Of a DNA stretch of 64,000 nt, positions 7,136 to 59,474 are shown one piece after another (position 1 is the first letter of the stretch; each line of letters opens with the position of its first letter). The notes under the pieces are model-generated. The model ran no database searches. It worked only from the letters and a program-made list of their open reading frames with translations, and was not told where the DNA came from. The position numbers were made by a program, and so were the translations under genes. The DNA comes from Isoetes taiwanensis (Eukaryota > Streptophyta > Lycopodiopsida > Isoetales > Isoetaceae): positions 7,567,012-7,631,011 of the forward strand of contig JAJEKV010000046.1 of NCBI GenBank assembly GCA_021234155.1, given 5' to 3'.

Positions 7136-7280
7136 ATCCTCTCAATTTTGCTTAAAGTGTCCATTTTAACTAAAACAAAAGCCAGAATTCAATAACTTAA
7201 CTTAATTAAGCAAGATTACACATATTACTTCCTCCAAAACTCTTTACATTAACAAAATTTTTCTATTATGTAGAAAATCT

Positions 7281-8002
7281 TTATGGTCTCTCTCCCTTGA
7301 TGTAGCTAGCAAGATGCATGTCTTGCTTCATCAGGGTCACTCTCTTTGCATGGACTGTGCAAGCTGTCGAATCTTCAAAATGCTGCACCAGTTTCTGTTC
7401 TGTTGCCTCTTGTAATGCCAGCAACATCTCATCCATCACCCGCATCTCCGTGTTGTACTCTTGGATCACCTCGAAACTAGGGGGCTTAACGGTGCACGGG
7501 AATAAAAAAGCTTCTCTCGGAAAAAATGCATGATCTCTCTCAGGGCTTTCCTCTCGCTCTCCTTTCTGCCGGTTCTCTTCTTGCCTGGTGGTCTAGGAGG
7601 CTTGGGCTTCTCTGGTGGCGGCTTCAGTGTCTGGCTCTTCGTCGAATGTCCATCTTCTATGGTTCTAACCCTGTTCTGCTGGTAATATGTGTTGTACGCC
7701 TCCCACTTCGCCATGAAGGCGTTGTGCTCCCTTAGTTTCTTCTAATAGACCTTGACGAGGTCTATCACATACGCCTTTCGAGCTGGCCGCGGTGCTTTGT
7801 TTCGGTCCCACGTCGGGTATGGTGGGGGGCTACCGCTTCCGGGCTGCTCCGGCGGTATTGCCTCGCTCATCACCGGGGTTTAGAAGAGCTTCCATCTTCG
7901 GTGTTGGGGATGAAGTCTTCATCTTTAGAGTCGTCGGAGGAGGGCGGGGGCTGGTCAGCTGATCGTTCGGTGATGACGACCTTGGGGTTAGGGGTCTTTA
8001 TT
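7281..8002 (-). pseudogene. Histone H3-like ORF of element 1, 3' part (linker and histone fold)
   Basis: From 8002 downwards the frames encode a proline/charged linker (PPPYPTWDRNKAPRPARKAY, WEAYNTYYQ) and then the histone fold. KALREIMHFF aligns with H3 ALREIRKYQ. After a one-base shift near 7466, the frame contains QEYNTEMR (H3 QDFKTDLR), ALQEATE, FEDSTACTVHAKRVTLM (H3 [17 protein letters not shown]) and ends IKGERP. By eye 29 of the last 62 residues equal canonical plant H3, including the Cys and His of the LCAIH motif. The N-terminal part lies at 13890-14505, separated by LINE 1. It is a diverged H3-like histone domain, not CENH3: loop 1 is not lengthened. Confidence 0.85.
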
Positions 8003-13889: not shown

Positions 13890-14505
13890 GGGGTCTTTAT
13901 TTGTTTAACCTTCACGAGTTTTCTTTTGCCCACCACCATCAAACTTCCCCTTCTTCTTCTTCTTCTTATTTCATTAGGCCACAACTTTTAGCCTCTCGTC
14001 TTCCCTCTTTCTCTTCTTTTCTACCTTTTTCTCTCGGCGTTCTTTGGCTTCATACTTCTTGATCCCACCTTGAGCTCTTCTTCCTGTTGGCTCGAGCATT
14101 GGCTCCCTCTGTTCTTCTTGCTCCTCTGCTCCTTCTTTCCGGATCGGGCTTGAGTTGCTTTCGTCGATGAATTACGCTCGAGTCGGCGATCTACACTCCC
14201 TCACGAGCCTTGGTTCTCCTTTCTTGCTCTGCTCCCTCCTCTTCCTCTTCGAGCAGCTTGTCCACATCTGCATGCACCTCACCTCTTCTCGGTGGACCTG
14301 CTGAATCCATCTCCACAGTCAGTGCTCACTCCCACAATTTGGGATCCTTCCTCTCGGTGTTCTTAGAAGGTTCTCCCTAAGCTCGATGAAGTCTGGTCCC
14401 TTTGGTTGAGGCTCTCACGACATCCTACGTATCGTGACTAGGATCATGGGCGCTGGGCGATTCACCAGGTCGAGGAACTCGAGCGGTCTGCTTGGTTCTC
14501 GCCAT
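13890..14505 (-). pseudogene. Histone H3-like ORF of element 1, 5' part starting MARTKQTAR
   Basis: The minus strand from 14505 reads MARTKQTARVPRPGESPSAH. The first nine residues equal the canonical H3 N-terminus with its initiator Met. H3 K9 is V and S10 is P. The frame meets a stop about 26 codons in, after which other frames run through a lysine-rich region toward the LINE insertion and join the histone fold at 7281-8002. The start is supported by the identical start in element 2 and by a TATA box about 101 bases upstream. The whole ORF, LINE removed, would be about 440 codons. The early stop may be a true mutation or a base-calling error. Confidence 0.8.
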
Positions 14506-15203: not shown

Positions 15204-16797
15204 GCGGATCGCCCTCTACTGTGATACGGTGCACCCACCGTGATACAAACAGAGTTCATCCCCCATACCAGCTCCATGTCGATACAGGCCCTCCACATAT
15301 CATCAAGAACCGTAATGAGTTCCAAAGTGGGAAGAGTGAAGGGGTCATTTTACCCCGCCTCCCTCGTGGCCTACCTAGTCGCGAAGTTTAAACATACATG
15401 TCAAGATACAATATCATCACATATCCACCTCGAAGGGTGTGTACGCCAAAATCTGATAGACAAAGATCAACACAATACATATGGGAATTCCTACCCAAGG
15501 CTCAGACTCGAAGGGATGACTGACGGCTTGGGTCTCTAGAGTTCATTGCAGACAGAATTTATGGCAATTGGTTTGGCTGGCATAAGAACATGGCTTAGGG
15601 TTGTCCACTCCATCCGCCCCTCCCTGTGCACACTTTGCGAGTAGGCTGAAAAGTGTTGGGACTCGATCAGAGCTCACGGGATGCATAGCCAAAGGGGCTA
15701 TTCCCCGGGTTGCATCTCCCCAGCCCGATGGGGCGGTAGGGATCTCTCCTCCGAGATCTACATGCCGACTCAAGGTGACTAGAGGGCCACCGCCCAGATT
15801 CTGACTTGAACCCACCGGAGAGTGACGATCACTCCACTGCAGCCGAGCCCATGCCTTGCCCACACGCAGTGGCAAGCCATTAGACCTAGTCCACAATGAT
15901 CCCCGGTAGACTTTACACACCAGAGGGATCGTTCAAGAGTCAGAACACGAACCTCTTTATAAGCCGCCAGCCCTGCCCCTTCACCCACAAACTGTGTGTG
16001 GCTCCTATGCACAAAGCCTAAAACTCTGGTTGTGCTAGATAGGCTAACCTAGGAGCATCTACTACCAAGCTTTAGGGCCTCTACCCCCCTTCCCAATACA
16101 AGGAGTTCACAGAGGTACATCATCCATATACATCACAGAAGAACTAAAGAACTAGATCTAATCTATATCATAGAGTTAGGTTCTTTAGTTAGAGTCTGGT
16201 ATCTGGGGATCTAAGTGGCTGCTATGGGCAATTTAATAGGCTAAACCTACTGATTCAATGACTGGAAGACGATTTAGGCTATTAAATTGACTAAATACCT
16301 GATCCTTGGCTCGCTCCTCCTGCCCTGAACTCGACCATCCTGCTGAACTGCTTGAAGATGGAACCAACAAGGAAAACTAATGGTGCAATTCGCTCAGCAG
16401 AGTCTGGGAGGCGGTTTTGACTCCTGGAACAAACAAAACAGAGCTCTAAAACCCTATGGACGAAAATGGCAAGTTAGGGTTTCTCCTACCTAAATAGACA
16501 AGGGGTTAGGGCTAGGGTTTCCAATTATCCCTTTAAGCATGTGGGATAATTGGGTATGGCCCACTTGCCTTTAATGGCTAGGTGGCATAAAGGTGTCCAC
16601 ATGGGAAAATGTGCACCTAGATAAATGTGCACATTGGTAGATGTGCACATTAATAAATGCACATACCTTGCAAGTTGCCCCCTAGGGGCTACCCGCCTGG
16701 CTACACGTCAGCGTACACGTCAGTCGGGGTGGCGTGTATGCGTGACGAGGCAGTACAGTATACGTCCTGGGACCGTATACTGTGCCGGAACGTCACA
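15204..16797 (-). repeat. 5' LTR of element 1
   Basis: It aligns over its whole length (1594 bases) with the element 2 LTR at 23974-25560 and ends ...AACGTCACA, the complement of the TGTGACG terminus. The inner end has decayed (cgcggatcg for TGTGACGTC). Many differences from the element 2 LTR fall at CAG/CTG triplets. No second LTR for this element lies in the window. Confidence 0.9.
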
Positions 16798-23973: not shown

Positions 23974-25560
23974 TGTGACGTCCCCTACTCATATACGGTG
24001 CACTCACCGTATATAAACAGGAGTTCATCCCCCATACCAGCTCCATACTGATACAAGGCTCTCCACGTATCACTGCAACCTTGATGAGTTCCAGTGGGAA
24101 TAATGAAGGGGTCATTTTACCCTGTCTCCCTCAGGGCCTACCTAGCTGCGGAAGCGTAAACATACATGTCAGTATACAACAACAACATCGCATAACCATC
24201 TCGAAGGATGGCTCATCACATATCTGCATAGACAAAGATCAACACATCACATATGGGAGTCCTACCCAAGGCTCAGACTCAAGGGGAAGGACTGACGGCT
24301 TGGGTCTCCAGAGTTCATTGCAGACAGAATTCATGGCAATGGATTTGGCTGGCATAAGAACATGGCTTGTGGTAGTCCACTCCATCCGCCCCTCCTGTGC
24401 ACACCTTGCAGAGTAGGTTGAAAAGTGTTGGGACCTGACTGTAGCCCTCCGGATGCATAGCCAAAGGGGCTATTCCTGGGTCGCATCTCCCCAGTTCCGA
24501 TGGGGCAGGTAGGGATCACTCCCACCAGAGATCTACATGCTGATTCAAGGTGACTAGAGGGCCACTGCCCGTACTCAACTGAACTCCATGGAAGGTGTCC
24601 ACCACCCCAAGAGTGTCGAACCCAATGCAAAGCCCGCACGCAGTGGCAGAGCATCAGGCCTAGTCATTATAATCCCCGATAGGCTTTACTACCAGAGGGA
24701 CGTGATCATGAGTCAGAACATGAACCTCCTTGTGAGCCAGTCTAGTCCCTTCACCCACAACCAAATGTGGTTCTTGTACACAGGCCGAATTTACAGTGTG
24801 CTAGAGAGGCTAACTAGGAGCATCAACTACCAGGCTTAAGGTCTCTACCCCCCTTCCCAATACAATGAGTTTACAGAGATACATCATCCATATACATCAC
24901 AGAAGAACTAAAGAACTAGATCTAATCTATATCATAGAGTTAGGTTCTTTAGTTAGAGCTTGGTATCTGGGGATCTAAATGGTTGTTATGGGCAATTTAA
25001 TAGGATAAACCTACTGATTCAATGACTGGGAGACGGTTTAGGCTATTAAATTGACTAAATATCTGATCCTTGGCTCGCTCCTCCTGCCCTGAACTCGACC
25101 ATCCTGCTGAACTGCTAGAAGATGAAGCTAGAAAGGGAAACTAATGAGCTAGATCGCTCAGACAGGATCTGGGAGGCGGGTTTGACTCATGGAGCAAGTA
25201 AAACAGAGCCCTAAAATGGCATGAATGAAAATAGCAAGTTAGGGTTTCCTTTACCTAAATAGACAAGGGGTTAGGGCTAGGGTTTCCAATTATCCCTTTA
25301 AGCATGTGGGATAATTGGGTATGGCCCACTTGCCTTTATTAACTAGGTGGCATAAGGTGTCCACATGGGAAAATGTGTACCTAGATAAATGTGCACATTG
25401 GTAAATGTGCACATAATTAAATGCACACACCTTGCAAGTTGCCCCCTAGGGTGCTACCGCTTGTTACACGCCGGCAGACACGCCGGTCCGGCCAGGCGGT
25501 ACGCTGATTTAGGCAAAGGATAAAGATACCAGGGACCGTATACTGTGTTGGAACGTCACA
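23974..25560 (-). repeat. 3' LTR of element 2
   Basis: It begins TGTGACGTCCCC and ends GGAACGTCACA, a perfect terminal inverted repeat with TG...CA ends, 1587 bases long. Near the start lies a stem ATATACGGTG-CACT-CACCGTATAT (23991-24014). Confidence 0.93.
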
Positions 25561-26435: not shown

Positions 26436-27962
26436 CTAAACACAAATCGACATGTCTGAGCCGATTTCTTCGGCGATGATCTTGCCGTCCCATTGCTCCA
26501 TGAACTGGGGGTACTGCTTTATTAGACCCTTCTTGAGTACCCATGTCGCGTCTTCCACTGGCAAGTGTTTCCACTTGACCAAATATTGGAGAAACTCTGA
26601 TCTCCTTGTTTTCCTGAAGGCTTTCTCAAGAATCAATTCTGGAACTATCTCCAGCTGCTCTTCTGTCATTTCTAACAACGTTGGAGTATCCAAGACTTCT
26701 TCTGGATTTGGAGTATGCTTCTTCAACAAACTCACGTGGAAGACTTTATGAATCTTTAGGTGTGCTGGTAGCTCCAACTTGTAGGTTTGGTTACCTACTC
26801 TCTTGGCTATTCTGAAAGGTCCAGCCCACCTTGGAGCAAGCTTCTTGCAATTTCCGATGCGGAGCTTCGTCTGCTTCACCTTGATCTTGAGCCAAACGTT
26901 GTCGCCAACTTGGAACTCTCTGACCGTCCGATGCTTGTCGGCGATGCTCTTTTGTCGACTCCTTGCTGCAAGAAGATATCCTCGAACCTCTTCCACCAGC
27001 TGCTGCATGTCGGCCAACATTTGCTGCGAAACCTCTACTTTTGATACAGGATTGTGCCAAGTGTCTGGAATTAAACATTGGTAGCCGTAATTGATCATAA
27101 ACGGCGACATTTGGGATGATTCCTGCTTGATGCTATTATACGCAAACTCCACCAAGTGAATATACTCTTCCCACATACTCTGTTTGTTCCAGACATAGTT
27201 TCGTAGCATATCCTCCAAAATTCTGTTGGTCCGCTCTATTTGGCCATCCGTCTGAGGATGATAGGCCGTGCTCATGGACAGCTTCGTCTGAATCGTCGCA
27301 AAGAGGTCCTGCCAAAAGGCACTCATGAACTTCGGGTCTCTGTCGGAGATGATCTCTCTTGGCATGCCATGGAGCCTGAAGATTTCTTTGGTGAAGAGCT
27401 TCGCTGTATCCATAGCTGTGTCGGTGGTCCTGCAAGGCACAAAGTGTACCATTTTCGACAACTTGTCGACCACAACCATCAAGGCATCTTTCCCTCTTAC
27501 TGTCCTCGGAAGCTTTGTTATGAAGTCCATGCTGATGACCTCCCACTTAACGTTCGGCACTGCTAAAGGTTCCAATGCTCCTGGAATTCGAAGCTTCTCT
27601 GCCTTTGTCTGCTGACATAGCTGACACTCTTTGATGTAGCGAGCTACTTGCTTCTTCATTCCTGGCCAATAATAGCTGCTACGCACTTTAAAATATGTCT
27701 TCATGAATCCCGCCTGGCCAGCTATTGGACTGTTGTGGGTGTCGTGTAGAATCAACTTCCTCACCCCTGATGATTCCGGCACACACAACTTGTTCTTATG
27801 ATACAAAAGGTTACCTTCCTTCTTAATTCTTGAAGATCTCCCTTTCTTTATCTGTTCTTGCCTCCTTGCACAAGCTCGCCCATACTTCCTCGAAGTCTGC
27901 ATCTGTCGGCAAGGTTTCTTCGATCTTCTTACCAAAGTCACTGGTGAGTGTCGAAATTGCAT
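26436..27962 (-). CDS. Element 2 integrase with C-terminal chromodomain
   Basis: This is a 508-codon intact frame. The H2C2 zinc domain (HDTHNSPIAG...C-Q-L-C-Q-Q) is followed by the DDE core: SMDFITKLP (D), ISDRDPKFMS (D) and TAYHPQTDGQIERTNRILED (E). The GPFRIAKRVGNQTYKLELP segment is the C-terminal DNA-binding part, and YLVKWKHLPVEDATWV is a chromodomain-like end. Integrase inserts the cDNA. In chromoviruses the chromodomain is thought to steer it to heterochromatin marks such as H3K9me. All three acidic residues are present. It is the best preserved pol domain here. Confidence 0.93.
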   Translation of the reverse strand: MQFRHSPVTLVRRSKKPCRQMQTSRKYGRACARRQEQIKKGRSSRIKKEGNLLYHKNKLCVPESSGVRKLILHDTHNSPIAGQAGFMKTYFKVRSSYYWPGMKKQVARYIKECQLCQQTKAEKLRIPGALEPLAVPNVKWEVISMDFITKLPRTVRGKDALMVVVDKLSKMVHFVPCRTTDTAMDTAKLFTKEIFRLHGMPREIISDRDPKFMSAFWQDLFATIQTKLSMSTAYHPQTDGQIERTNRILEDMLRNYVWNKQSMWEEYIHLVEFAYNSIKQESSQMSPFMINYGYQCLIPDTWHNPVSKVEVSQQMLADMQQLVEEVRGYLLAARSRQKSIADKHRTVREFQVGDNVWLKIKVKQTKLRIGNCKKLAPRWAGPFRIAKRVGNQTYKLELPAHLKIHKVFHVSLLKKHTPNPEEVLDTPTLLEMTEEQLEIVPELILEKAFRKTRRSEFLQYLVKWKHLPVEDATWVLKKGLIKQYPQFMEQWDGKIIAEEIGSDMSICV

Positions 27963-28446
27963 TGCAGTGCACTCTTGTTGTCAAAGGATGCCTTGAAAGC
28001 GCATCTACTACCACATTGAGCTTCCCTGACTTATAGACTATATCAAAGTCATGCTCTTCGAGGAACTCCATCCACCTTCGCTGCCTCAGGTTGAGATGTG
28101 GTTGCGTGAACACATATTGGAGGCTTTGATGATCCGTGTCCAACTGGAACTTTCTCCCCAACAGGTAATGTCTCCAAATCCTTAGTGCCCTGACAACTGC
28201 AAGCAATTCTTGATCGTGCGTCGGGTAGCACGTTTCGGCGTCGTTCATCTTCCTGGAGTCCTAAGCTACTACCTGCTCTTCCTGCATGAGCACTGCACCT
28301 GTGGCTATCTTACTTGCGTCTGTCGCCACAAGCTTATCCTTCTCTGCGTCTGGCAGGGTCAAGACGGGGGCAGTTGTCAAAGCTTCCTTCAACAATTCAA
28401 ACCCTGCTTGGACTTTCTTGTGCCAATGATCTGCCCAATCTTTCAC
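27823..28446 (-). pseudogene. Element 2 RNase H region
   Basis: Frames 28261-28446 ([17 protein letters not shown]) and 27823-28248 ([22 protein letters not shown], then LDTDHQSLQYVF) show the Ty3 RNase H D, E and D residues. A stop at about 28260 splits the domain. Confidence 0.85.
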
Positions 28447-28572
28447 TTTTTACGCCCTCGTCAAGTCCGTTAGCGGAGCCACTATCTTTGCAAAGTTCTT
28501 CACAAACTTCCTGTAGTACCCTGCTACGCCGAGGAAGCTTCTGACCTCGTGGACATTCTTTGGTGCCGACCA

Positions 28573-29546
28573 CTAAATGACTGCTTCAATCTTGGCAGGA
28601 TCCGTCGAAATTCCTTCTGCTGAGATCACATGACCCAGGTATTCCACCCTCTCTGTTGCAAAGTGGCACTTCGACAACTTGGCATACAACTGGTGCCTCC
28701 TTAGCTTCTTGAGCACTCTCCTTAGGTGTTGTACGTGTTCTTCCAGGGATCTGCTATACACCAAAATATCACGAAAGTATCCAAGAACTCCCTGAAAATG
28801 TCGTTCATGAGCTTCATGAACGTTGCTGGGGCATTTGATAAACCAAACGGCATTACCGTGAACTCATAATGCCCATACCTGGTCCTGAAAGCCGTTTCGT
28901 GGATGTCTTCTTCCTTGATCCTGATTTGATGGTACCCCGACCTCAGGTCTATTTTGGAGAAGACTTTTGCCCCTTGGAGCTGATCCATCAAGTCATCCGA
29001 TATGGGGAGCGCATACTTGTTCTTGATGGTGTGCTTGTTCAACTGCCTGTAATCTATGCACATCCTCAAGCTACCATCCGTCTTCTTCACAAAAAGAATG
29101 GGTGCCCCAAATGGTGAGACGCTAGGTCTAATGAAGCCTAGGTTGAGCAACTCCTGCAATTGCTTCTTTAGCTCCGTCAGCTCCTGCGTCGTCATTCTGT
29201 ATGGAGCCTTGCTTGTTGGCTTTGTACCTGGTTCGAGTGCTATCTCACACTCGACTCCCCTATAAGGTGGAAGCTGCTTGATCTCATCTGGGAAGAGATC
29301 GTGGAACTCTGTAATCAACTTAGCTATCTGCTTTGGCAACTTGCTGAGCACCTTATCTTCCTTGCTTTCTTCTGACTCGGGCTCTTCGAGCTGAAGCTTG
29401 AAGATGTATGCTACTCGCTCGCTCTTTATGCACTTGAGCAGCCGCTTACTAGACATACACTGCATGATGGGGATAACTTCTTTACCTGACTTCTGGTAAT
29501 CTGAGGCCTTTGAGTCCTTTTGTCTGCCGTCTCTACGGTCCTGCAC
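28573..29546 (-). pseudogene. Element 2 reverse transcriptase, active site damaged
   Basis: The frame 28722-29546 has [46 protein letters not shown] (first catalytic D) and [19 protein letters not shown]. The FVxxFxDD box should come next. Instead FLDTF is followed by a few missing bases, and the next frame resumes at [13 protein letters not shown]. The catalytic Asp pair is thus lost in the sequence as given. The corresponding box in element 3 ([12 protein letters not shown]) is whole. Confidence 0.88.
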
Positions 29547-32095: not shown

Positions 32096-32242
32096 ATTCC
32101 TCACTACTTGCTCTAAATATGTCCAATTTGACTGAAACAAAAAGCCATTACTCGCTAATTCAACTTAATTAAGTACATTTATACACATAATCTACTAAAA
32201 AACAAACACTTTGTATTAAACAAAATTTTATCATTTACAAGA

Positions 32243-33500
32243 TTAATAAGGCTCTCCTTTTATGACTGGCCAAGTGCATATCTTTCTTCATCAAGGTTAC
32301 CCTTTTTGCGTGAACCGTGCATGCTGTTGCGTCTTCAAAATGCTGCACGAGTTTTTGCTCCGCTGCTTCCTCAGAGGGACTAGCAAAGATCTCACCGATT
32401 ACCCTCATTTCGATTGCTATATTCTTGGGACGACTTCCTTTACGAAGTCTGCGAAGGGAGACGGGGGATAAGGGAAGCCGAAACTCCTCTCGAAGTGCGG
32501 GATCTCCCCGATTGCTCGAAACCCATTTGGGCTTTCCTTTTTTCGGCTTCTTTGGAGGTTTGGGCTTCTCGAGGGCGGCTTTAGGGTCTGCTTCTTAGCC
32601 GGCCCGTCCACTGCGACAAATGTGACCTTATTTCTGGTAGTAGGAGTTATAAGCCTCCCACTTCTTCATGAAATCGGTGTGCTCCTTGACTTACGGTAGA
32701 CCCCACGAAGGGGTCTATCGCGATATGATTCGGGCAGGTCGCGGTGCTTTCTTCCTATCCCAAGTTGGGTAGGGGGGTGCGCTCACGCTTTCCGGGCTGC
32801 TCCTGATCTGGTGCTCCTTCCTCATCACTGGGGGCTTGGAAGAACTCCCACCCTCAAGGTTAGGGTTGAAGTCTTTGTCATCACAGGGAGTGGGAGGTTG
32901 GTTGGTGGCATTTGGCCGTTACGTGATGACGACCTTAATGTTGGGGGTCTTCTTGATTCTTCTCTTGGGCTCCTCCACCTTCTTGCCCTTGAGCTTCTTC
33001 TTTTCCTCGGCCTCCTTCTCTTCCCTTCCCTCTTCTTCAAAAGCCCTTTTCTTTTCTCCGGTGCAGCTCCTTAGCCTCGTGCTTTCGAATCCATGCAGCG
33101 AGTTCTTCCTCCGGGGTACCGGCAGGGAGGGTCGCGCTTTCGAGAATCGGCTCCCCGGTCTTACGCCTTTGCCTCCTGCTCTCGCTCGGCCTTATCTTGC
33201 TTCTCCTTCTCGACCTCCTCGAGTACTCTTTGCATCTCGTCGTCATCGCCCTCCATTTCCTCGATCACTTAAACCGGCGTTGATACCGCGTCCTCTTAGT
33301 TACGTCTGCTGGTCTATCTCCTGGTCTTGTGCTCCCTGCTGGGATCCTTCCCTTTGGTGCTGCTCCTCTGAGACTGTTCCCTCACTCGATGAAGGTTGGT
33401 CTTCTCTCGCAAGAAGACGCTCCTGAAGCATCCGCTGAAGTAGGGCGCTGGCGGTTTCGCCTCCTCGAGGAACCCTAGCAGTTTGTTTGGTTCTCGCCAT
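32243..33500 (-). pseudogene. Histone H3-like ORF of element 2, MARTKQTAR tail plus diverged histone fold
   Basis: It starts MARTKQTARVPRGGETASAL, identical to canonical H3 through R8 but with V-P in place of K9-S10. The first frame runs to 33300 (QRMLQERLLARED, Q/E/S-rich). Later frames are rich in E and K (EEKEAEEKKKLKGKKVEEP, KKTPNIKVVIT) and reach WEAYNSYYQ. The fold starts at AIGEIPHFERSF (H3 ALREIRKYQKST) and PPSPFADFVKEV (H3 [11 protein letters not shown]). It then shifts frame and gives AAEQKLVQHFEDATACTVHAK, RVTLMKKDMHLAS and a stop at 32243. Total about 419 codons. Several frame breaks; an H3 fused behind a long tail is the best reading. Confidence 0.85.
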
Positions 33501-36400: not shown

Positions 36401-36420
36401 ATTATCTCTTCTTGGATCTC

Positions 36421-36434
36421 TGGCTCTGATACCA
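36421..36434 (-). promoter_or_regulatory. Copia primer binding site (tRNA-iMet)
   Basis: The minus strand reads TGGTATCAGAGCCA one base inside the LTR end. Confidence 0.9.
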
Positions 36435-36435
36435 A

Positions 36436-42233: not shown

Positions 42234-42377
42234 TCAACTTAAAATTCGTGACAACACAGCTTCAGTTAGCATTGGCTGGATTACTGCAGGGTCTGCTACT
42301 GGATCGATACCAAGCACTTGATTGTATATGTACAACAAGTGCTTGCACGTGAATTCTCTAATCCTTTCCATGTGGAT
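42234..42377 (-). pseudogene. Possible host exon end interrupted by element 3
   Basis: The minus strand encodes HMERIREFTCKHLLYIYNQ and VLGIDPVADPAVIQPMLTEA, then a stop at 42234. Element 3 inserted just upstream, at TGGAT. Across the junction the frame continues about nine codons into 55362-55388, to an AATGCAG that could be a splice acceptor. The protein is not recognised. Confidence 0.35.
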
Positions 42378-43952
42378 TGTGACGCTCCCAGAATATATAC
42401 GACCCCCGGCCGTATACATACGGGGACTTTCCCCTCCCATGGCGACCATCGCGCCATGAGCAGGGCCCTCCATCTAACCCGGGCCGTCTACGTAGAGGCC
42501 ATTTCGGTGAAGGAACGGAGGGTCTTTTCATTACGCCGATGAAGCCTACGTCGCGGAAGCATGAATACAAGGGTTAGCACACAGCATAAATCACATATAA
42601 ATAACCACCACGAAGGGTGGCATATCCATCCAAATACCAACGGCAAAGAATATGCATCTAAGACTAAGAAAACACCCAAAACCCAGGTTCTACCCCGGTT
42701 CAGACTCTAGTGGGGGAGCGACCGACTCTTTGGGTCTCGGAGATCGATGAGGCCGAATCTTGGCATGGCGTTGAGTAGCATAGAACATCGGCTAGGGTTG
42801 TCCACTCCATCCGCCCCTCCTGTGCACACTTTGCAGATGGGTCGATTCACGCTATGGCTTCGCTATAGCCTTCCGGAGACGCAGGCTCTAGGGATCACCC
42901 TTTGAGTCTACTCCAGGTTCATGACACCTGGTCCGATGAGGCAGGTCGGGGAGGCGTCCCCTTCCAGGATCACAGTGGTGTCGTGGGTGAGCTAGAGAAT
43001 ACGTGCCGCATCAGCGACCCCGCATCCGTGCGAACTTACTCACCCTAATTCTACTCAAAGTGCATGGTGCCCCATACGGGTCACACCACTACACCCAGGG
43101 AGTGTCAGACCCATACCCGGCCCTCCACGTGACCGGCTATCAGGCCTAGCCCACTGTAGGAGTCTCAGGAGCCTTTTATGCTCGTGCAAGACCCCACCCC
43201 CTACTTCTGCTTGTGTCCCTTATGCGGTGCTAAGCCAGACCATAGCGTCTATGACCCGGTGGGCTCTTGCGCACAGGCCGAAACTAGTAGGGTGTTAAAG
43301 GACTACTAGGAGCATTCTATACTCAAGCTCAGAGGCCCCTACCCCCCTGTTAATCCCTGTTTACGAGAAACTACTAAACTAACTCATAGAGACATCGACC
43401 ATTCCATACAGAGCATAATTCATAATTGAAAAATATTCCTAATTACCAAAGAAGGGTTAATCTCACCCAAAACCAATCAGAAAAGAATACTAGAGTATTA
43501 TTCTACAATTTGCAAGTTATCTACTACTAACCGAGTTTAATTTGGACCCGTTGTCAAGGGGTGCTTCCATGGTCTTTGTCTTGGGGTAGCGGCGGTGGTA
43601 GAGGGTGTCTTGGCGATCACGGGAGCGAATAGCAAGCGCTTCTGGCCTTTCGGTTTGCTCACGGTGCTTTCTTTGGGTCGAAATTGGGCTGATATGAGGA
43701 TGGCGCTTCCCTTTGGTGGCCTAGTTTAGCAATCCTCATGCTAGCCACCCGGGTCATGCCAAATGGCTCCTTCCCACTATGGATTGACTTAATCACATGT
43801 CTTTAGATAATTATCCTTTATAATCTGGTTAACATGGCTAATTAAATCCATTGTGGCCAACCCCCCTAGGTTATCATACCCGGTTGGCGTACCTATACCA
43901 AAGTGGCGTGTTCAATATTTATCGTGCAGGTATAAATACTTGGAACGTCACA
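42378..43952 (-). repeat. 3' LTR of element 3
   Basis: 1575 bases, TGTGACGCTCCC to GGAACGTCACA. It is cleaner than the 5' copy. Confidence 0.93.
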
Positions 43953-44515: not shown

Positions 44516-45229
44516 TTACTTACGATGCATCTTGCCCTCTGAGGCGCTATCCCTAAGACTCAAGCTTCTAAGCTTACCGCCGACTGCGGGGTTGATAGCA
44601 TCGTTGATGGTGCGGCCTTGAGATTCGCGCATGAAATCCGGATAATGTTTGTCAAGGTCTATCTTCATCACCCACGTAGCATCTTCAACTGGTAAGTGTT
44701 TCCACTTAACTAAGTATTGCAACATTTGAGTCCTTCTGGTTTGTTTGTAAGCTCGGTCAAGAAGAGCTTCATGCACTATTTCGAGTTGCTCTTCTGTCAT
44801 TTCTAGGAGGGCTGGGGTCTCCAAAACCTCCTCTGGATCAGGGGTGTGTTGCTTGAGAAGACTCACGTGAAAGACTTTATGGATCTTCAAACGGGGCGGT
44901 AAATCCAAGCGATATGCCTGCTCTCCAACACGGTCAATAATTTTGAACGGTCCAGCCCATCTGGGTGCCAACTTTTTACAGTTACCAATCTTAAGCTTGG
45001 CTTGTTTCACCTTAATCTTAAGCCAAACTGATTCACCCACCTGGAAATTGCGTGGGGTTCTGTGTTTGTCGGCCACACTCTTCTGACGACTGCGTGCCGC
45101 TAATAAATAATCACGAACTTCTTCGACCAGCACTTGCATCTCTAAGAGGAGTTGTTGAGAAACCTCTACTTTAGAGACGGGGTTATGCCATGTATCTGGG
45201 GTAAGGCATTGATAGCCATAATTTATCAT
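44516..45229 (-). pseudogene. Element 3 integrase C-terminus and chromodomain
   Basis: GPFKIIDRVGEQAYRLDLPP and HKVFHVSLLKQHTPDPEE lead into MLQYLVKWKHLPVEDATWV, the same chromodomain-like ending as element 2. The frame is intact for 237 codons, with its start in the middle of the integrase because of an upstream shift near 45240. Confidence 0.88.
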
Positions 45230-45239
45230 AAAAAGGGGA

Positions 45240-45918
45240 CATCATCGGAAGATTCTGCTTCATCTTTGTTATAAGCAAACTCAATCGGATATATGTAGTC
45301 GACCCATTGCGATTGCTTACTCCACACATAACTTCTTAGCATATCCTCTATAATACGATTGAGTGCGTTCGTCGACCATCGTTTGAGGATGATATGTTGT
45401 ACTCATAGCAAGCTTGGTCTGGATGGTGGCAAAGAAATCTTTCCAAAATGCACTTACAAATTTGGGATCCCTATCCGACACAATTACTCGTGGCATCCCG
45501 TGTAATCTGAAGATTTCCTTGGCGAACAGTAGAGCAGTATCATAGGCGGTATCTGTGGTACGACATGGCAAGAAATGAGCCATCTTTGACAATTTGTCGA
45601 CCACAACCATTAAGGCATCATATCCCCAGAGAGTCCTTGGAAGGCCCACAATGAAATCCATGGTTATTACTTCCCATTTGGCATTTGGCACATCCAGAGG
45701 TTGCAACTTCGCTGGAATCAAATGCTTGCTCGCTTTTGTTTCTTTGGCATACGACAACGCCTAATGTATTTGGCAATTTCCTTTTTCATGGAAGGCCAGA
45801 AATAACTGGAACGAATTTTAAAGTAGGTTTTCATAAAACCTGCGTGTCCAGCTATAGGGCTATTGTGTGTGTCATGAAGAATGAGCTTCCGTACTCCTGA
45901 AGTCTCTGGCACACACAA
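45240..45918 (-). pseudogene. Element 3 integrase zinc domain and DDE core
   Basis: Frame 45718-45918 has HDTHNSPIAGHAGFMKTYF. Frame 45317-45757 has TMDFIVGLP (D), VSDRDPKFVS (D) and TTYHPQTM in the place of YHPQTDGQ, after which the conserved E segment is shifted. Two or more indels interrupt the domain. Confidence 0.88.
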
Positions 45919-46047
45919 CTTATCTTTATAATATAATAAGTTGCCCTCCTTCTTATATGCCGCGAAAAGCCTCCGTTACGCATCCGTGCGGCGTCCTTAG
46001 CCAAATTGTCCCAAATGTCACGAGAACTGCGGATCGGTGGCCAAAGG

Positions 46048-46672
46048 TTACGCTCTATCGTTTCCCAAACTCAGCGGTGAGTGTAGAAATGGCATTACAA
46101 TGGGTTGGTCACCAAGGAATGTCGTGATAAAGCATCCATAACCACATTGTGCTTGCCGGGGCTTATACATAATCTCAAAATCATACTCCTCGAGAAATTC
46201 CATCCATCTCCTTTGGCGGAGGTTGAGATTGGGGGCTGGGTGGATAAATACTTGAGGAGACTTTGGTGATCCGGTATCAGCTGGAATCTTCTTCCAAGAA
46301 GGTAGTGTCTCCATATCCGCGGGGGGCGCGGACTACGGCTAACAGTTCCTGATCATGGGTGGGATATCGTTGCTCTATCTCATTCATCTTCTTTGAGTCG
46401 TAAGCAATTACCCTCCCCTCCTGCATTAGGACCCCACCGGTGGCAATTTTACTGGCATCTGTCGCCACTAGCTTATCCTGTTCCGGATCGGGTAATGTGA
46501 GAACTGGTGCTGATGTTAGGGCATCTTTAAGCTGCTGGAAACTCTGCTGAACTTTCGTCTTCCAATGGTCCATCCAATCCTTCACCTTCTCATGCTTTGT
46601 GAGATTTGTAAGAGGAGTTGCAATCTTCGCGAAATCCTTTACAAATTTTCGATAGTAGCTTGCTAACCCCAA
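46048..46672 (-). pseudogene. Element 3 RNase H
   Basis: [20 protein letters not shown] and [13 protein letters not shown] in 46277-46672 show the D and E residues. 46048-46314 carries LRQRRWMEFLEEYDFEI. Frames overlap with shifts. Confidence 0.85.
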
Positions 46673-46725
46673 GAAACTCCGGACCTCGGAAACATTCCCT
46701 GGAATAGGCCATTCCCTTACGGCCT

Positions 46726-47450
46726 CTATCTTTCGGGGTGCTTAGCAATTCCCTCTGCGGAAATGATATGGCCTAAATAATCAACCTTCGGAGTGGCGAA
46801 CTTGCACTTAGAGAACTTGGCATAGAGTTGATGACGTCTCAGCTTTTGTAGGGCCAATCTAAGATGTCTCTCATGTTCTTCAAGGGTCTTAGTGTAGATG
46901 AGAATGTCGTCGAAGAAGATAACAACAAAATCATCCAAGTATTGTCGGAAGACATCATTCATTAGTCGCATAAACATTGCTGGGGCATTAGTTAATCCAA
47001 AAGGCATAACCGTAAATTCATAATGCCCATACCTAGTCTTGGCGGATTTATGGATGTCCTCCTCCTTGATCCTTATCGATGGTATCCGGGCGAAGATCAA
47101 TCTTTGAAATACTTAGCCCCTTATGGCTGATCCATTAGGTCATACGCCCTAGGCAAAGCATAGCGATTCTTGATGGTATGCTTGTTAAGTTGCCGGTAAT
47201 CAATACACATCCTCGGTGAGCAGTCCTTTTTCTTAACAAAGAGAATAGGGCGCCAAAAAATGAAACACTAGGTCGGATGAAACCTAGGTTTAATAGCTCT
47301 TGAAGTTGCTTCTTAAGTTACGCCAGTGCGGAGGACTCATGCGGTGCAGAGCCTTTTGATAGGCTTGGTACCTGGTTCTAAAGCTATTTCACATTCCACC
47401 CCTCTAAAAAGGAGGAAGCTTTCTGAATCTCATCGGAAAAAAGATCACCA
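46726..47450 (-). pseudogene. Element 3 reverse transcriptase
   Basis: The 46726-47100 frame has [19 protein letters not shown] and the catalytic [19 protein letters not shown], both Asp present. N-terminal RT blocks lie upstream in broken frames (47100-47450). Confidence 0.87.
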
Positions 47451-47491
47451 AATTAGCGGAGAAGATTAGCAATCCCCTCTGGGGGCGTCGA

Positions 47492-48200
47492 TTACTTGTT
47501 TTTGCTTAGCATCATTTCGATGGAAGCAAGCATAACGATGCAAAGGAGCTTTTCCTTGTGTATAGCTTTATCTAACTGCACGATGGACATAGGCTGCCGG
47601 GATAGGGTTGAGAGGTTCACCTTTACTTGATTCTGCTTGAGCTCCATTGGTTGCATTGAAGGTAACTTCTCTCTTCTCATGATCTATGTTAAGCTTTTTT
47701 GCCGGATGCGGGAATTCCATACCAACAATGAGGTCATATTTGCCAATATCCATCAATTCACACCTAAAGCAATGGTGCACTGGGAGTTGCATGTTGAGAT
47801 TGATCGGCGACCATGGGTATGCGACTTTACCAGCTGGCTAGAGTAACGAGGTCGGGCCGGGACCTCAATGTTTCTAGACGTAAGACATGGGCCATCCTAG
47901 GAGAAGCAAAATTATGTGTACTTCCCGTATCCATAAGAATTACAAAAGGCTTCTTGTCTATTTGGCCTATGGTAGAAATAACAGCAGGCTGATTTTCAGC
48001 ATTGCCGCTTTCTATAGCCGCAAGGATATGAGACGCACCGTGAATGTAATCGGGAGCTTCCTCCTCGACAGGTTGTGTTGCTTCGAGATCATCCCAGTCG
48101 AGGTCGGCCATGGCCAACTGGGCAGTCTGCGTGACATAAGGGCAGTTCTGCATAAAGTGCCCTGGCCTCATACACCTGTAGCATGCCTTATCCTGGCGGA
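47492..48200 (-). pseudogene. Element 3 gag zinc knuckle and aspartic protease
   Basis: The frame gives C-Y-R-C-M-R-P-G-H-F-M-Q-N-C, a CCHC knuckle, and then VILMDTGSTHNFASPRMAH, the D-T/S-G protease active site. IGKYDLIVGMEF follows in the next frame. Confidence 0.87.
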
Positions 48201-48474: not shown

Positions 48475-49299
48475 CTATGGCCTTAACCCCTCAATATAGC
48501 CTTCCACTGCCCTTTTCTCATTCATACCAGGTACATACAACCTCAGGCGCATAAACTCATCCGTGTAAGCCTGCACGGACATACTCTTCTGCTCCAACCT
48601 GTAAAAAGTCTGGATCTGTTGGCATTTGTGTGCACGGGGCACATAATGCGATTTGAAGGCCTTGGCAAACTTTCTGAAGTTGCATCTGCTCCTGTCCAAA
48701 TGCTTGGCTCTGGCATAGCCCTTCCACCAAATACGGGCAGCTCCTGTAAGGTTGGTGGTGGCAACCTTTCCTGTATCTTTCTCTGTCATTCCGTAAGACT
48801 TCCCAAACTCCTTCATCTCATCCAACCAGGACTCGGCGTTTAGGCCGCCTCGGGATTTCCCATCAAACTGGGCCAATTTCCTATTCTTCCATATACTCGT
48901 TATAGCTGTATCAACCGTCTTACGGTACTCTTTGTCTCGGCGCTTTGCATGGTCACCCGCTGATACCGATGAACCAGAAGATACGGAAGTGGTTGATCGT
49001 GAGGAAGTGGCACTATCCTTAGAGGAACCGGTAGCAGCTTAGCATGAGGCCTCCTCCTTGCGGGTCTGAGGACTAGCTCGGGGAGATGGGCTGTTGTCTT
49101 GGTGGACTCGGTGGTAGCGGAGGTAACTCGGTCCATCCTCACGGGTTTGTTGCGGTGGGTTGGCATGCAATACATAGGCTGTAATTAGCCCTAAGCGCCT
49201 TTTCATTAACATCGGTTCTGTTCGAGGAGTCGACCCTCTTTGGCGTTGGAGGTGTCTGCCAAAGCGGCGTTCACGGGCACCGTCTATATCGAGCATTCA
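48475..49299 (-). pseudogene. Element 3 gag (capsid) domain
   Basis: The clean part (48475-48876) contains AESWLDEMKEFGKSYGM, NLTGAARIWWKGY, FAKAFKSHYVPRAHKCQQI, TFYRLEQKSMSVQAYTDEF and YIEGLRP, all hallmarks of the Ty3 Retrotrans_gag domain that forms the particle shell. The N-terminal part (to 49299) is serine-rich and frameshifted. Confidence 0.88.
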
Positions 49300-50237: not shown

Positions 50238-51604
50238 TCATCCGTAGGCGGGGGGTGGTGGAGGCGGTCGGTGTAATGTGAGAGTCACCCAGGGGTCTCT
50301 TTGTAGCAACCGCAATGGATGCAACCTCGGTGGGTAGGCAGCGGCTAATGGGGGGCTGCCGTAAGGAGCTTCATGCTCATCCGAGGTGCGATGTCGACCT
50401 AAGGCCGTCGGGGCAAGATCCCGTCGCCGCAGTACATAAGTAAGCGTACGGTAGGGGGGAGCTTCTTGTGCCCGGTCGGTGTGGAAACGCGGAGGGCCCA
50501 CCATGAAGCTTCAGCCTCCGGCCCCAAATCCCGGGCTATAAAAGAGGACTTGCGGTGTCGAAAGGCTGACAAAAAAAGCGGGTAAGGTGGTTGCCGATAC
50601 CTTCCCTTGCGGGGTCTACGATGTGGCCACCTCCTTATCCAAATCCATGGAAACCTCCTCTTCCTTAAGTTCTGCTGCTCCTCCTTCACATAATGCGGGA
50701 TTATGATATAAATCTTCTCCCTCGTCATCGACCGGAGGGAACCTCAACCATATTGATATTAGGGCGTGAGGTCCCATAGCCGTGAAGGCATCGGTGAGAA
50801 TTTGTGAGGGCCGGCTCACCGCATCGAAGTCCCGAAGGCGTAGTAGAATCTCAGCCGGCTCTATGGTCTCTTGGCGGGGCTGGGGCATTGCTGCACCCTG
50901 GAGGAAGCTCAATAGAAGTGAAGTCGATGAAGTCATCCATGCAATACTGCGCAAGCTCGTAAAAAGCACATGGTCTTTACGCTGCGTCTAAATCCGACCA
51001 TCATGTGATAAGTCGGATAATATCATCCAAGAGTAGATATTCTTGCCCTTGGTGATAAATAAGCGGAAGGGCATCCAGCCACGACAAGCCCTACGGCTTG
51101 CTCCGCGGCGCGGGAGGCAGCTCTAAAGCTAATTGCTTCCAGCGGGCGAAGTAAGCCCATGCCTATGTGTTCGTCTTCCCCTCCTCGGAAGACTTCGAGG
51201 CGGTTGCCTTTCTCTCTGAGGCAAGGTTTCATCCTCGACATATTGGTCCATGAGGGATGGCTAGGGCAAAGGCAACCTCAAGGTATTGCCGACCACGATC
51301 TTTGCTAGCGGGCAAATGTTTGCCCCATCAGACTTCCCCTTCGGCACATGCGCGCATGGGTGTCTCCCCTAGCATCTCCGGGACTACCTCCCCTCCGGAC
51401 TCACGGTGGGGAGGATCCCCAAGAGGATATACAGGAGGAGCATCTCCTCCATGTAGAAGTCTAAAATCGGCGTGTCACGGGTGCCTGCATGTTAGCAAGG
51501 AGGTCCGGTATTTGTGAGCAAAAGGTCATAGCGGGGTCGAAAGGGACTTGCGGATCCCATTGCTCTCCGTCATGGTACCAGGCGATAAGGTCAGCGGCTG
51601 CCAT
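50238..51604 (-). pseudogene. ORF-B of element 3, unknown protein
   Basis: It starts MAAADLIAWYHDGEQWDPQV, matching MAAVDFRRWYS of element 2 in pattern and position, 195 bases after the H3 stop. Later blocks (ETIEPAEILLRLRDFDAVSR, LTDAFTAMGPHALISIWLRF, an acidic EDLYHNPALCEGGAAELKEEE, and a proline-rich end) are poorly conserved with elements 1 and 2. Frames are broken in several places. Confidence 0.5.
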
Positions 51605-51798
51605 GGCGCTAAAAAGGAGGAGAGAGGAAGAAGAACAAACGTAACAGGTGAAATGAAGTTTAAAAGTTCTTTTATTTGAGGCTGATGTCAGCATTCTTTC
51701 ATATTAAATTACGAAATAGATAAAAAAAAATACAAGATAAAAAGTTTTTCTATTAAATACAAAAAAAATATTTACAATGCGGATCCAAGCACAATAGG

Positions 51799-52197
51799 CT
51801 AAGGATGCTCCCCCCGAATCCTACGGGTGAGGGCTAAATCCTTAGGCATTATGGTTACCCTCTTTGCGTGGATCGCGCAAAGATTGGCGTCACCAAAAAG
51901 TGCCACCAAATAGGCTTCAGCAGCCTCTTGGAGCGCCAAAATAGCAAAGGTTTGAAAACGGAGGTCGGTCTTGAACTGCTGCGCGATCTCTCGTACCAGC
52001 CTCTGGAAGGGTAGCTTCCGTATCAGAAGCTGTGTAGACTTCTGGAACTTGCGGATTTCCCGCAAGGCCCGAATGTAGACCGGGTGCCGATGGGGTTTCC
52101 CTTTGTGGGGCGGGTTTTGCGGTGACCGGCCGGTCTTTGGTACCGTCTTAGCCCCAGCATGACCGGTCGGGGAGCTATCCACTCGCTTCTTCTCCAT
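51799..52197 (-). CDS. Histone H3 ORF carried by element 3
   Basis: 132 intact codons from an internal ATG; the frame is open upstream to 52251. Residues 1-37 form a basic proline/threonine-rich tail ([20 protein letters not shown], then PHRH). From [12 protein letters not shown] onward it is an H3 histone fold: [64 protein letters not shown] and stop. By eye about 15 of the last 89 positions differ from canonical plant H3. K56, K79, C110, H113 and K122 equivalents are kept. Position 90 is L as in plant H3.3; position 87 is F and 41 is H. No long loop 1, so not CENH3. A longer N-terminal part may begin near 53034. Confidence 0.95.
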
Positions 52198-52251
52198 TTG
52201 GGGCTGGTATTCTTGCCAAAAGCCCCCGGCGGTCTTTAGTTTCTCCTTGTA

Positions 52252-53034
52252 TTATTTGCCGGTCTTCGGGCTAAACCCTTCCTCGGTGCTTAATGGTCAC
52301 ATGTTACCATGGGGTTGGGCCAACCCACCCCGATTGCCCTCCCGATCTGGCGGGTTCGGTTTTCTGTCGATCCCTCTCATCTGTTCTCAAAGCTTCTCCC
52401 GTTCCTCGGACTCTCCTCGAGATCTTCTTCGAATCGAGCAAAATGTTGGCTCGCGCCGGCGAAGAAGCTTCGACACAGAATGCCGTGGTACGCAGACCCA
52501 TATCGATCTGTATGGTCGTCAGATAATCTATGCTGATATCGGGGATTTCTCCCCAAATAAAGCTGTGGTTATCCTCGTCCCAACGGTATGGGGGAACCTC
52601 AATTGCCCTGCCATCGATGACGGCAAAGCCGTCCCCGAGGTACCTGTACTCTCTTCCCCTGGCCGTATATCGCCTGGCTCAATCTCGAGTTTGGTCGTCT
52701 TCCTTGGCCAAGCCTCACGATACGATCGGCTTCCCTGCTGATGCCCCTCCTCCTCGGTATGCCCTTCTGTTGGGGGATAGAATTTAATGAGCATCATGAC
52801 CATGTCGAGGTTGCTTTCGACAATGGTAAGGGGAGGTGGCGAAGATTCATCGGATAGGGGAATGGCTCGAAATGATAGATAGGATAGGGGATCTATCGGT
52901 TATTCTCAAACACGTTTACTAGCTCATCTAGGGTATGTCAATGAAGGCGGTGCAGCCATGTCTTAGGGTGATCATGGCATAAATCTCCACTATACTCAAA
53001 GTAGAAGGGTCAGGCGGTCTTGGTATTAGCCATA
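52252..53034 (-). pseudogene. Possible N-terminal extension of the element 3 H3 ORF
   Basis: At 53034 the minus strand reads MANTKTA and a stop. It resembles MARTKQTA with one substitution and one lost codon, and lies about 412 codons from the H3 stop, the same total length as in element 2. Charged frames in between ([33 protein letters not shown]) are compatible with a linker but broken. This is a suggestion, not a firm call. Confidence 0.3.
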
Positions 53035-53809: not shown

Positions 53810-55361
53810 TGTGGCGCTCCCGAATATATATGACGTATACATGCGGGACTTTTCCCTCCCATGGCGACCATCGGCGCCATGAGGCGGGTCCCTCCATCTA
53901 ACGAGACCGTCTCGTAGAGGCGCGGTGGTGAGGACACGGAGGGTCATTACATTACGTAGCCGATGAAGCCTACGTCGGCGGAAGCATGAATACAAGGGTT
54001 AGCACCGCGGCATAAATCACATATAAATAACCACCACGAAGGGTGGCATATCCATCAAATACCAGCGGCAAAGAATATGCATCTAAGACTAAGAAAACAC
54101 CCAAAACCCGGGTTCTACCCGGTTGAGACTCTAGTGGGGGCGGCCCGGGCTGGCTGGGTCTCGGGAGATCGGCAGACGAATCTTGGCATGGCGTTGGCTG
54201 GCATAGAACATCGGCTAGGGTTGTCCACTCCATCCGCCCCTACATTGCACACTTTGCGGATGGGTGCGATTCACGCTGTATGGCCGCTATAGCCTTGGGA
54301 ACGGGCTCTAGGGATCACCCTTTGAGTCTACTCGGGTTCATGACACGGTCCGATGAGGCAGGTCGGAAGGCGTCCCCTTCGGGATCCACCGGTGGTGTCG
54401 TGGGTGAGCTAGAATACGTGCGCGCATCGGCCGACCCAGCATCCGTGCCGACTTACTCACCTAATTCTACTCAAAGTGCATGGTGCCCCATACGGGTCAC
54501 ACCACTACACCAGGGAGTGTCGGACCCATGCCGGCCCTCCACGTGACCCGGCTATCAGGCCTAGCCCACTGTAGGAGTCTCGGGGAGCCTTTTATGCTCG
54601 TGCAAGACCCCACCCCTACTTCACCCTTTGTGTCCCTTGTGCGGTGCTAAGCGGACCATGGCGTCTATGACCCGGTGGGCTCTTGCGCGGGGGCGAAACT
54701 AGTAGGGTGTTAAGGGACTACTAGGAGCATTCTATACTCAAGCTCGGGGGGCCCTACCCCCCTGTTAATCCCGTTTTACGAAACTACTAAACTAACTCAT
54801 AGAGACATCGACCATTCCATCTGAGCATCATTCATAATTGAAAAATATTCCTAATTACCAAAGAAGGGTTAATCTCACCCAAAACCAATCGAGAGAAAAG
54901 AATACTAGAGTATTATTCTACAATTTACAAGTTATCTACTACTAACGAGGAGTTTAATTTGGACCCGTTGTCAAGGGGTGCTTCCATGGTCTTTATCTTG
55001 GGGGTAGCGTGACGGGTAGAGGGTGTCTTGGCGTCCGGGAGCGAATAGCAAGCTGCTTCTGGCCTCTTTGCTCACGGCGCTTTCTTTGGGTGAAGTGGGC
55101 TGATATGAGGATGGCTTCCCTTTGGTGGCCCTAGTTTAGCAATCCTCATGCTAGCCACCGGGTCATGCCAAATGGCTCCTTCCACTATGGATTGACTTAA
55201 TCACATGTCTTTAGATAATTATCCTTTATAATCGGTTAACATAGCTAATTAAATCCATTGTGGCCAACCCCCTAGGTTATCATACCCCAAGGTGGCATAC
55301 CTATCTTAGAGTGGCGTGTTCAATATTTATCATTACCGTGTATAAATACTTGGGCGTCACA
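53810..55361 (-). repeat. 5' LTR of element 3
   Basis: 1552 bases, aligning end to end with 42378-43952. Differences are mostly 1-3 base indels or changes, many at CAG/CTG triplets. Confidence 0.92.
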
Positions 55362-55385
55362 TGGATAATCACGGACAAGCTGCAT

Positions 55386-58903: not shown

Positions 58904-59474
58904 GAACGGTGCAGTCTTGGATTCGATTTTTTGAGCTGCAGTTTTCAAGCTAGAATTGTCATTTTAATCCATTGATGAGGACTTTCGAGCGGTACCGTTC
59001 GAGTTTTCATAATCTGATTTTATGTTGGAGGTAGCCTATTCAATCTATCCACAATTTCTTGAACGGTGCCGTTCGAGTTTTCATGATACAATTTTATGTT
59101 CGAGGTAGCTTATTCAATCTATCCACAATTTCTTCAACGGTGCCGTTCGAGTTTTCATGATACATTTTTATGTTAGAGGTAGCCTATTAACTCTATCCAC
59201 AATTTCTTGAACGGTGCCGTTCGAGTTTTGATTGCAGAGTTTCCAGTTCGAATTAGCCTATTAAATCTATCCACAATTTCTTGAGCGGTTGCGTTCGAAG
59301 TTTTTATTCTGAGAGTTTCTGTTGAATTAGGCTATTAAATCTATCCACAATTTCTTGAACGGTGCCGTTCGAGTTTTCATTGCAGAGTTTCCAGTTCGAA
59401 TTAGGCTATTAAATCTCTCCACAAGTTTTCATTGCAGAGTTTTATGGTCGACATTTTCTTGAACGGTGCCGTTC
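58904..59474. repeat. Palindrome array at exact 74-base spacing
   Basis: Sites based on GAACGGtgCCGTTC begin at 58987, 59061, 59135, 59209, 59283 and 59357, each exactly 74 bases apart, and a last one at 59461. A half-site lies at 58904. Those at 59061, 59209, 59357 and 59461 are perfect. Between sites lies a conserved spacer (gagttttcat..., ctatccacaatttctt). Confidence 0.9.

Follow-up and report, generated by a model that had tools for sequence, protein, structure and literature searches.

Transposons that carry a histone H3 gene have been described in Dothideomycete fungi, in which hAT DNA transposons with an H3-like gene occur in Pyrenophora tritici-repentis (PMC3538342) and Pseudocercospora fijiensis (PMC6710886). 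These hAT-H3L elements have terminal inverted repeats and encode a plain H3-like protein, which was captured from a transcript; 26 copies are given for one fungus and hundreds of RIP-inactivated copies for the other (PMC3538342, PMC6710886), and H3L ESTs were reported in P. tritici-repentis (PMC3538342). Orchid Ty3/gypsy elements carry an ORF for an AlkB-type RNA demethylase (PMC9289625), and plant LTR elements with additional sense ORFs beside gag-pol have been reviewed (PMC7264820). The word "histone" is absent from the main text of that review and from the main text of PMC13317346, which deals with plant gene capture. Large DNA viruses with their own histones are also described (PMC9145170 and others). 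Some DNA viruses of this kind have all core histones or histone doublets.

The elements described here come from the lycophyte Isoetes taiwanensis and were found through a 64,000-nucleotide stretch of contig JAJEKV010000046.1 (hereafter the window). They form a numerous family that carries its own H3, fused to a long extra protein segment and under selection. The nearest precedent is the fungal hAT transposons with H3, which likewise multiply a captured H3 coding sequence; however, the Isoetes elements are LTR retrotransposons, with LTRs, reverse transcriptase (RT) and integrase in place of terminal inverted repeats, an 8-bp duplication and a hAT transposase, and their H3 is fused within an ORF of 411-467 aa that falls into two old classes with low dN/dS. 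As in the orchid AlkB elements, a gypsy lineage has fixed an extra host-type domain and retained it through rounds of replication, although the orchid domain is an RNA-acting enzyme (PMC9289625) and the present one a histone. The additional plant ORFs treated in the cited parts of the review lie between pol and the 3' LTR and include no histone (PMC7264820), whereas the H3-bearing ORF1 lies between the 5' LTR and gag. Like the large DNA viruses (PMC9145170), these are selfish genetic elements with a core histone of their own, of which only the H3 fold was found here. No retroelement encoding H3 was found among the open-licence papers searched, in agreement with an earlier reading of the window from its letters (the sequence-only reading), which knew of no described LTR retrotransposon family with a histone gene.

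The ORF list and Pfam analysis showed that the window holds, at 51799-52197 on the minus strand, an ORF of 132 aa with an H3 fold. The search with PF00125 (Histone), a check that the sequence-only reading had suggested, matched the 132-codon product with 125.5 bits (E 1.7e-36); among the matches listed in a PDB search, each of the best 60 was an H3 chain, the lowest E being 1.5e-46. The last 89 residues agree with plant H3.1 at 74 positions (83%) and with one host H3 at 75. K56, K79 and K122 are all present, as read directly from the translation and the PDB alignment. These results bear out the sequence-only reading, which had described an intact H3-like ORF on the coding strand of its element, about 83% identical to plant H3 over the last 89 residues and with these three lysines kept. 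The AlphaFold model of ORF1 had a mean pLDDT of 56, with much of the H3 part below 50, and lends no support to any reading.

The ORF lies in E3, a Ty3/gypsy element of 13 kb with a chromodomain. TGGAT flanks its paired LTRs on the outside at both ends, as had been read from the sequence. The LTRs are 88.9% identical and have the ends TGTGACG/TGTGGCG...CGTCACA; the genes are on the minus strand, where the 5' LTR is followed by H3, then gag, then pol with its chromodomain. The features of E3 and of two related elements in the window, E1 and E2, are listed in Table 1.

Table 1. Positions of the parts of elements E1, E2 and E3 in the window, with the basis of each assignment.
Feature	Position	Strand	Basis
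E1 upstream part of H3 fold (different frame)	7469-7741	-	
E1 open frame, most of class II H3 fold	7284..7592	-	Pfam Histone, 47.0 bits
E1 MARTKQTAR codons, start of broken class II ORF1	14479..14505	-	
E1 5' LTR (matched extent)	15210..16797	-	83.6% identical to E2 LTR
E2 3' LTR	23974..25560	-	LTR comparison
E2 pol (RT, integrase, chromodomain)	26436..29546	-	Pfam
E2 open frame, C-terminal part of class II H3 fold	32238..32594	-	Pfam Histone, 34.6 bits
E2 MARTKQTAR codons, start of broken class II ORF1	33474..33500	-	
E2 5' LTR piece	34155-34648	-	98.2% identical to 3' LTR over 497 bp
TGGAT target duplication, low end	42373..42377	.	
E3 3' LTR	42378..43952	-	LTR pair comparison
E3 pol remnant: protease, RT, RNase H, integrase, chromodomain (44516-45229)	44516..48171	-	Pfam; similarity to E2 pol
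E3 gag fragment	48475..48876	-	Pfam Retrotrans_gag, Ty3_capsid
E3 ORF2 remnant, protein between ORF1 and gag	50268..51655	-	tblastn with ORF2 of L031, L032
Stop codon of E3 H3 fold	51799-51801	-	
E3 H3 fold, C-terminal 98 codons of ORF1	51802..52095	-	Pfam; PDB H3; gap-free last 89 codons vs L027
E3 ORF1 remnant (N-domain, linker, H3 fold)	51799..53033	-	blastn to L027; indels upstream of H3 fold
E3 5' LTR	53810..55361	-	88.9% identical to other LTR
TGGAT target duplication, high end	55362..55366	.	

The 132-codon ORF is the open C-terminal remnant of an ORF1 of about 411 codons that is otherwise broken in E3. Comparison by blastn with the uninterrupted ORF1 of another copy, L027, showed 77% nucleotide identity from 53033 to 51802, with 68 gap openings, none of them in the last 89 codons; because E3 ORF1 aligns to L027 ORF1 from the ATG at 53033, this is its start, and the ATG at 52197 is internal and not the original one. 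Everything around the ORF had been read as frameshifted, which proved true of the N-terminal part of ORF1 and of much of pol but not of the gag region or of seven gag-pol frames of 88-237 codons that are still open. Compared with a relative, the gag region has hardly any indels, with 4 gap openings over about 1050 bp. The gap-free H3 end had been considered as a mark of present selection; since gag in E3 is also nearly gap-free, this was dropped. For the H3 fold of E3 and L027, dS was 0.33, dN 0.057 and the ratio 0.17, which fits, as expected, a once-selected gene that later drifted.

Between 48000 and 54000, the indel density of E3 against L027/L031 is very uneven, being high in the LTR, the leader, the N-terminal part of ORF1 and ORF2 and near zero in the H3 end and gag; conversion or a mosaic origin is possible. 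A tandem array with a 74-bp unit occupies 58990-59433 of the window.

A tblastn search of the window with the E3 ORF revealed two further H3-like stretches on the minus strand, at 7472-7284 (E 2e-15) and 32372-32268 (E 2e-8), and the frames that hold them exceed the Pfam Histone cut-off (47.0 and 34.6 vs 26.4 bits). H3-like sequence is present at the same place, downstream of the 5' LTR, in both other related elements of the window; in E2 it lies upstream of pol, while for E1 pol is outside the part analysed. About 76% of residues are common to the E2 and E3 pol in the two longest matched pieces. The canonical H3 N-terminus MARTKQTAR is found in E1 at 14505 and in E2 at 33500. A further frame that looks protein-coding is shared by E2 (30063-30998) and E1 (5076-5933), on the minus strand in both, and lies between pol and the H3 part; its pieces are 56-85% identical. 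It had no Pfam match and was not matched by the ORF2 of class I (described below). E1 also contains, between the ORF1 start and the H3 part, L1-like non-LTR frames at 8502-11803 on the plus strand (endonuclease-like and RT-like by eye), and copia-like gag/protease frames were seen by eye at 35030-36435 on the minus strand, just past the end of the E2 5' LTR match at 34648.

The host assembly (1.66 Gb, 1110 contigs) was searched with PF00125. The best 150 of 8705 loose candidates were scored, so that totals are lower bounds, and all 150 were above the cut-off. Fifteen of them match from profile position 2, as canonical host H3 does, and the eight of these that were read were all canonical. Of the remaining 135, as counted by eye from the search tables, 36 have an open frame of 400 codons or more and 5 a stop inside the match. 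Twenty of the 36 long-frame loci were fetched and are here called class I; like the eight class II loci below, all were chosen for long frames.

ORF1 is open in all 20 class I loci, with 411-464 aa from the first Met, and consists of a conserved N-domain, a low-complexity linker, a basic segment (net +13 in L023) and the C-terminal H3 fold, which makes up the last quarter of the 411-467 aa protein in both classes. In L020 the ORF extends beyond the usual stop, and in L014 and L016 a short N-terminal stretch is apparently out of register. According to their N-domains, the copies fall into subfamilies A (12 loci), B (7 loci) and C (1 locus, the relative of E3); the N-domains of B and C share 31-34% with the L023 N-domain, which belongs to A, whereas the H3 folds are nearly invariant: in all 20 copies, the same residue as in one host H3 stands at 64 of the 99 fold positions. 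The ARTKQTARKS tail is lacking, and R stands at the K36-aligned position in 18/20. No relative of the class I N-domain was found at E <= 0.001 among 2219 candidates, and Foldseek found nothing at E <= 0.001 in the PDB or among viral models with query models of mean pLDDT 56 and 68. Upstream of ORF1, the end of an LTR match lies 0.6-0.9 kb away in 18 of the 20 loci and 3.9 kb away in L019; in L024, no LTR match was found. The database protein P0046, from a 3188-bp contig of another assembly, is H3-like, has an unusual tail (MARTKTTPKKSIGHKSVPKKKK...) and ends in GERP; the trees place it weakly as sister to class I (85/83 and 88/83), and it is possibly an element-type H3 of another organism.

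A search with the H3 piece of E1 gave class II, in which 150 of 7617 candidates were scored, again making totals lower bounds, and all had E <= 3.2e-29; by eye, 18 of the 150 lie in open frames of 400 codons or more, and 2 of these 18 have a stop in the match. Eight loci were fetched whole and eight in part. ORF1 is open in all eight whole loci (424-467 aa) and starts with MARTK in seven. Sixteen starts could be read (E1, E2, the eight whole loci and six of the eight partial pieces, the other two not reaching the start in frame): MARTKQTAR is exact in 11, has one residue changed in 4 (one K4E) and is absent in frame in 1 (L046). K9 is not conserved, being K in 7 and V in 8 of the 15 starts with a tail. 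Thus the canonical tail ARTKQTARKSTGGK, absent in class I, is kept in class II from A1 to R8 in 11/16 starts and then diverges. It is followed by a charged insert, a conserved YPTWD...WEAYN stretch and the H3 fold.

The class II fold is 48-52% identical to host H3, and a PDB search with L040 gave H3 chains as the best 60 matches (E 2.6e-23). C110, K115, R116, D123, L126, R69 and R72 are kept in 8/8 copies; K56 is changed to R in 7/8, K79 to N in 8/8, K122 to Q in 7/8 and R63 to P in 8/8. Because R63, K56, K79 and K122 are changed, entry of class II into nucleosomes is doubtful. The genome lists of class I and class II share no place on C907 and C1018, the two contigs compared by eye.

A sample independent of H3 was reached through pol: 85 of 38908 pol candidates were scored, so that pol totals too are lower bounds, 10 were picked by rank regardless of H3, and a 901-bp piece about 5.6-6.5 kb upstream was read for each. 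Class II ORF1 sequence was present upstream of seven of the ten copies and clearly included the H3 fold in five; no ORF1 was found within the 901-bp piece of the other three, a result that leaves room for ORF1 at a different distance. Four pol rows were seen by eye to have a class II H3 row 5.6-6.0 kb upstream on the same strand; they lie on C952, C1088, C1019 and C1034, and the C1034 copy belongs to the ten. The sequence-only reading had asked how many other copies carry the ORF at the same place; it is there in 2/2 window elements, 20/20 class I loci, 8/8 class II loci and 7/10 pol copies.

Three loci were followed downstream, and all three showed the complete order 5' LTR-ORF1 (H3)-ORF2-gag-pol-3' LTR, with LTR pairs 92.7, 95.4 and 95.8% identical over the parts compared, only the second pair being complete. 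In L027/L031, the LTRs are 95.4% identical, the six letters GTGACC stand on both sides, and the 5' LTR is followed by the primer site TGGTATCAGAGC, which we take to be of the initiator-methionine type. Pol frames reach 948 codons in L030, including the chromodomain, and 1107 codons in L032, ending before it. Both the TG...CA ends with a short target duplication (5 bp in E3; also L027/L031) and the domains found by Pfam in E2, E3, L030 and L032 (gag, protease-RT-RNase H-integrase and a terminal chromodomain) are those of Ty3/gypsy chromoviruses. No pol relatives were found among viral contigs.

ORF2, which separates ORF1 from gag, is open in several copies of class I (in L032, 465 aa from Met, 7279-8784, minus strand) and had no Pfam match and no PDB relative. 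A by-eye impression of a second, H2A-like histone fold in it was supported neither by a PDB profile search nor by hhalign against H2A, H2B, H4 and H3, a low-power set-up in which true H3 scored below 3% probability against H2A, H2B and H4. In an IMG/VR contig, L001, a 368-codon frame at 343-1446 has a distant H3-like C-terminal half and could be a viral histone doublet.

Selection on the H3 fold (98 codons) was estimated as dN/dS by the Nei-Gojobori method. The ratio was 0.036 in subfamily A (66 pairs, dS 0.70) and 0.024 in B (21 pairs, dS 0.44), vs 0.017 among six host H3 genes (15 pairs) and 0.127 and 0.151 for the class I N-domain. In class II it was 0.090 for the fold (28 pairs), 0.311 for the insert and 0.049 for the first ten codons (21 pairs). 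Because the class I and II loci had been chosen for long frames, the estimate was repeated on pol-linked copies: three ORF1 pieces that were not frame-selected gave 0.071, 0.074 and 0.076 against seven class II copies, with one pair among the three saturated and two stops in the 216-codon piece of L055.

Comparisons of the class I subfamilies with one another and with the six host H3 genes gave pS 0.80-0.89, and E3 compared with the host gave 0.90; these values exclude a recent re-capture from the six host genes for the copies read. In two trees, the H3 phylogeny that the sequence-only reading had proposed placed class I and E3 in a clade apart from host H3 (98/94 and 98/95). Class II formed a separate branch (100/100), compatible with one or two captures, which cannot be told apart because the branch is very long. 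A longer loop 1 is characteristic of CENH3. Identity with CENH3 was rejected for both classes: the class I alignment to host H3 37-135 contains no insertion, and the single CENH3 in the phylogeny groups elsewhere; class II likewise has no loop 1 insertion. H3 is thus an old, selected gene of the element lineage.

Judged by their sequences, elements with ORF1 may be able to enter or imitate host chromatin. The leading reading, to which we give an even chance, is that the element supplies an H3 variant which partners host H4 in chromatin linked to the element, and that host silencing misreads this chromatin. ORF1 would pair with host H4 and enter H3-H4 tetramers or nucleosomes, both steps being suggested by the fold, which is kept as a whole (64/99 positions in 20 class I copies). 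Nucleosomal ORF1 would thereby put its N-terminal segment on chromatin, and the new or transcribed DNA of the element would gain chromatin with tails that host silencing enzymes could not read normally; this proposed evasion of silencing is suggested by the tail changes. A more far-reaching form, possible and clearly less probable, is that the elements run their own chromatin: an H3 with a rewritten or relocated tail would replace host H3 on the DNA of the element, and new copies would escape or redirect silencing, the two classes having gone opposite ways (tail lost and fold kept in class I; tail kept and fold rewritten at K56, K79 and K122 in class II).

The H3 fold could instead serve as a tether, exchanging into host nucleosomes while the N-terminal segment recruits gag or integrase and steers integration together with the integrase chromodomain. 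The kept H3 interfaces fused to a conserved N-domain, and an integrase that already has a chromodomain, would suit such a role, but the N-domain has no detectable relative and is replaced in class II by the charged insert, and we regard tethering as rather unlikely. A slightly lower place is given to a decoy or histone mimic, in which ORF1 would tie up host H3 chaperones, writers or readers and weaken silencing without lasting deposition. The class II copies speak for it, with an exact ARTKQTAR N-terminus in 11/16 starts, low dN/dS in the first ten codons and a diverged fold that has lost K56, K79 and R63; class I, however, has a near-canonical fold and no tail, and a pure tail decoy needs no fold.

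It is improbable that ORF1 packs element RNA or cDNA in the virus-like particle with the H3 fold as a nucleic-acid binding module, despite its position beside gag and the basic segment before the fold (net +13 in L023). The surfaces of the H3 fold are kept as a whole, and H3 without H4 forms no stable DNA particle.

Far less probable still is a one-off processed copy of host H3, or repeated recent captures, without function for the element. The ORF is intronless and E3 is decayed, as such an origin would have it, but many copies occupy one position in the element, pS to the six host H3 genes is 0.86-0.90, dN/dS among copies is low and class I forms a clade separate from host H3, which refutes this origin for the copies examined. 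The sequence-only reading would have accepted it for an ORF with no other copy and near-identity to a host H3; neither was found, but instead many copies, lasting selection and a saturated distance to host H3. That the H3 fusions are host genes lying beside LTRs by chance has next to no probability and is refuted for E3, L023, L025 and L027: although 17/20 class I and 8/8 class II loci were not followed through to a 3' LTR and L019 and L024 have no LTR at the usual distance, the three followed loci are complete elements enclosing ORF1, and ORF1 lies between LTRs with TGGAT outside in E3, and L027/L031 is flanked by GTGACC.

In genome annotation, open copies of ORF1 risk being mistaken for host H3 genes or being repeat-masked. 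Few host proteins are as strongly conserved as the core histones, the substrate of transposon silencing; a retrotransposon H3 selected over many rounds of copying would be a genomic parasite acting directly in the chromatin layer. Such a gene makes it possible to test the way elements meet heterochromatin, the extent to which relocation or replacement of an H3 tail is tolerated, and any use that the genome makes of its many additional loci coding for H3.
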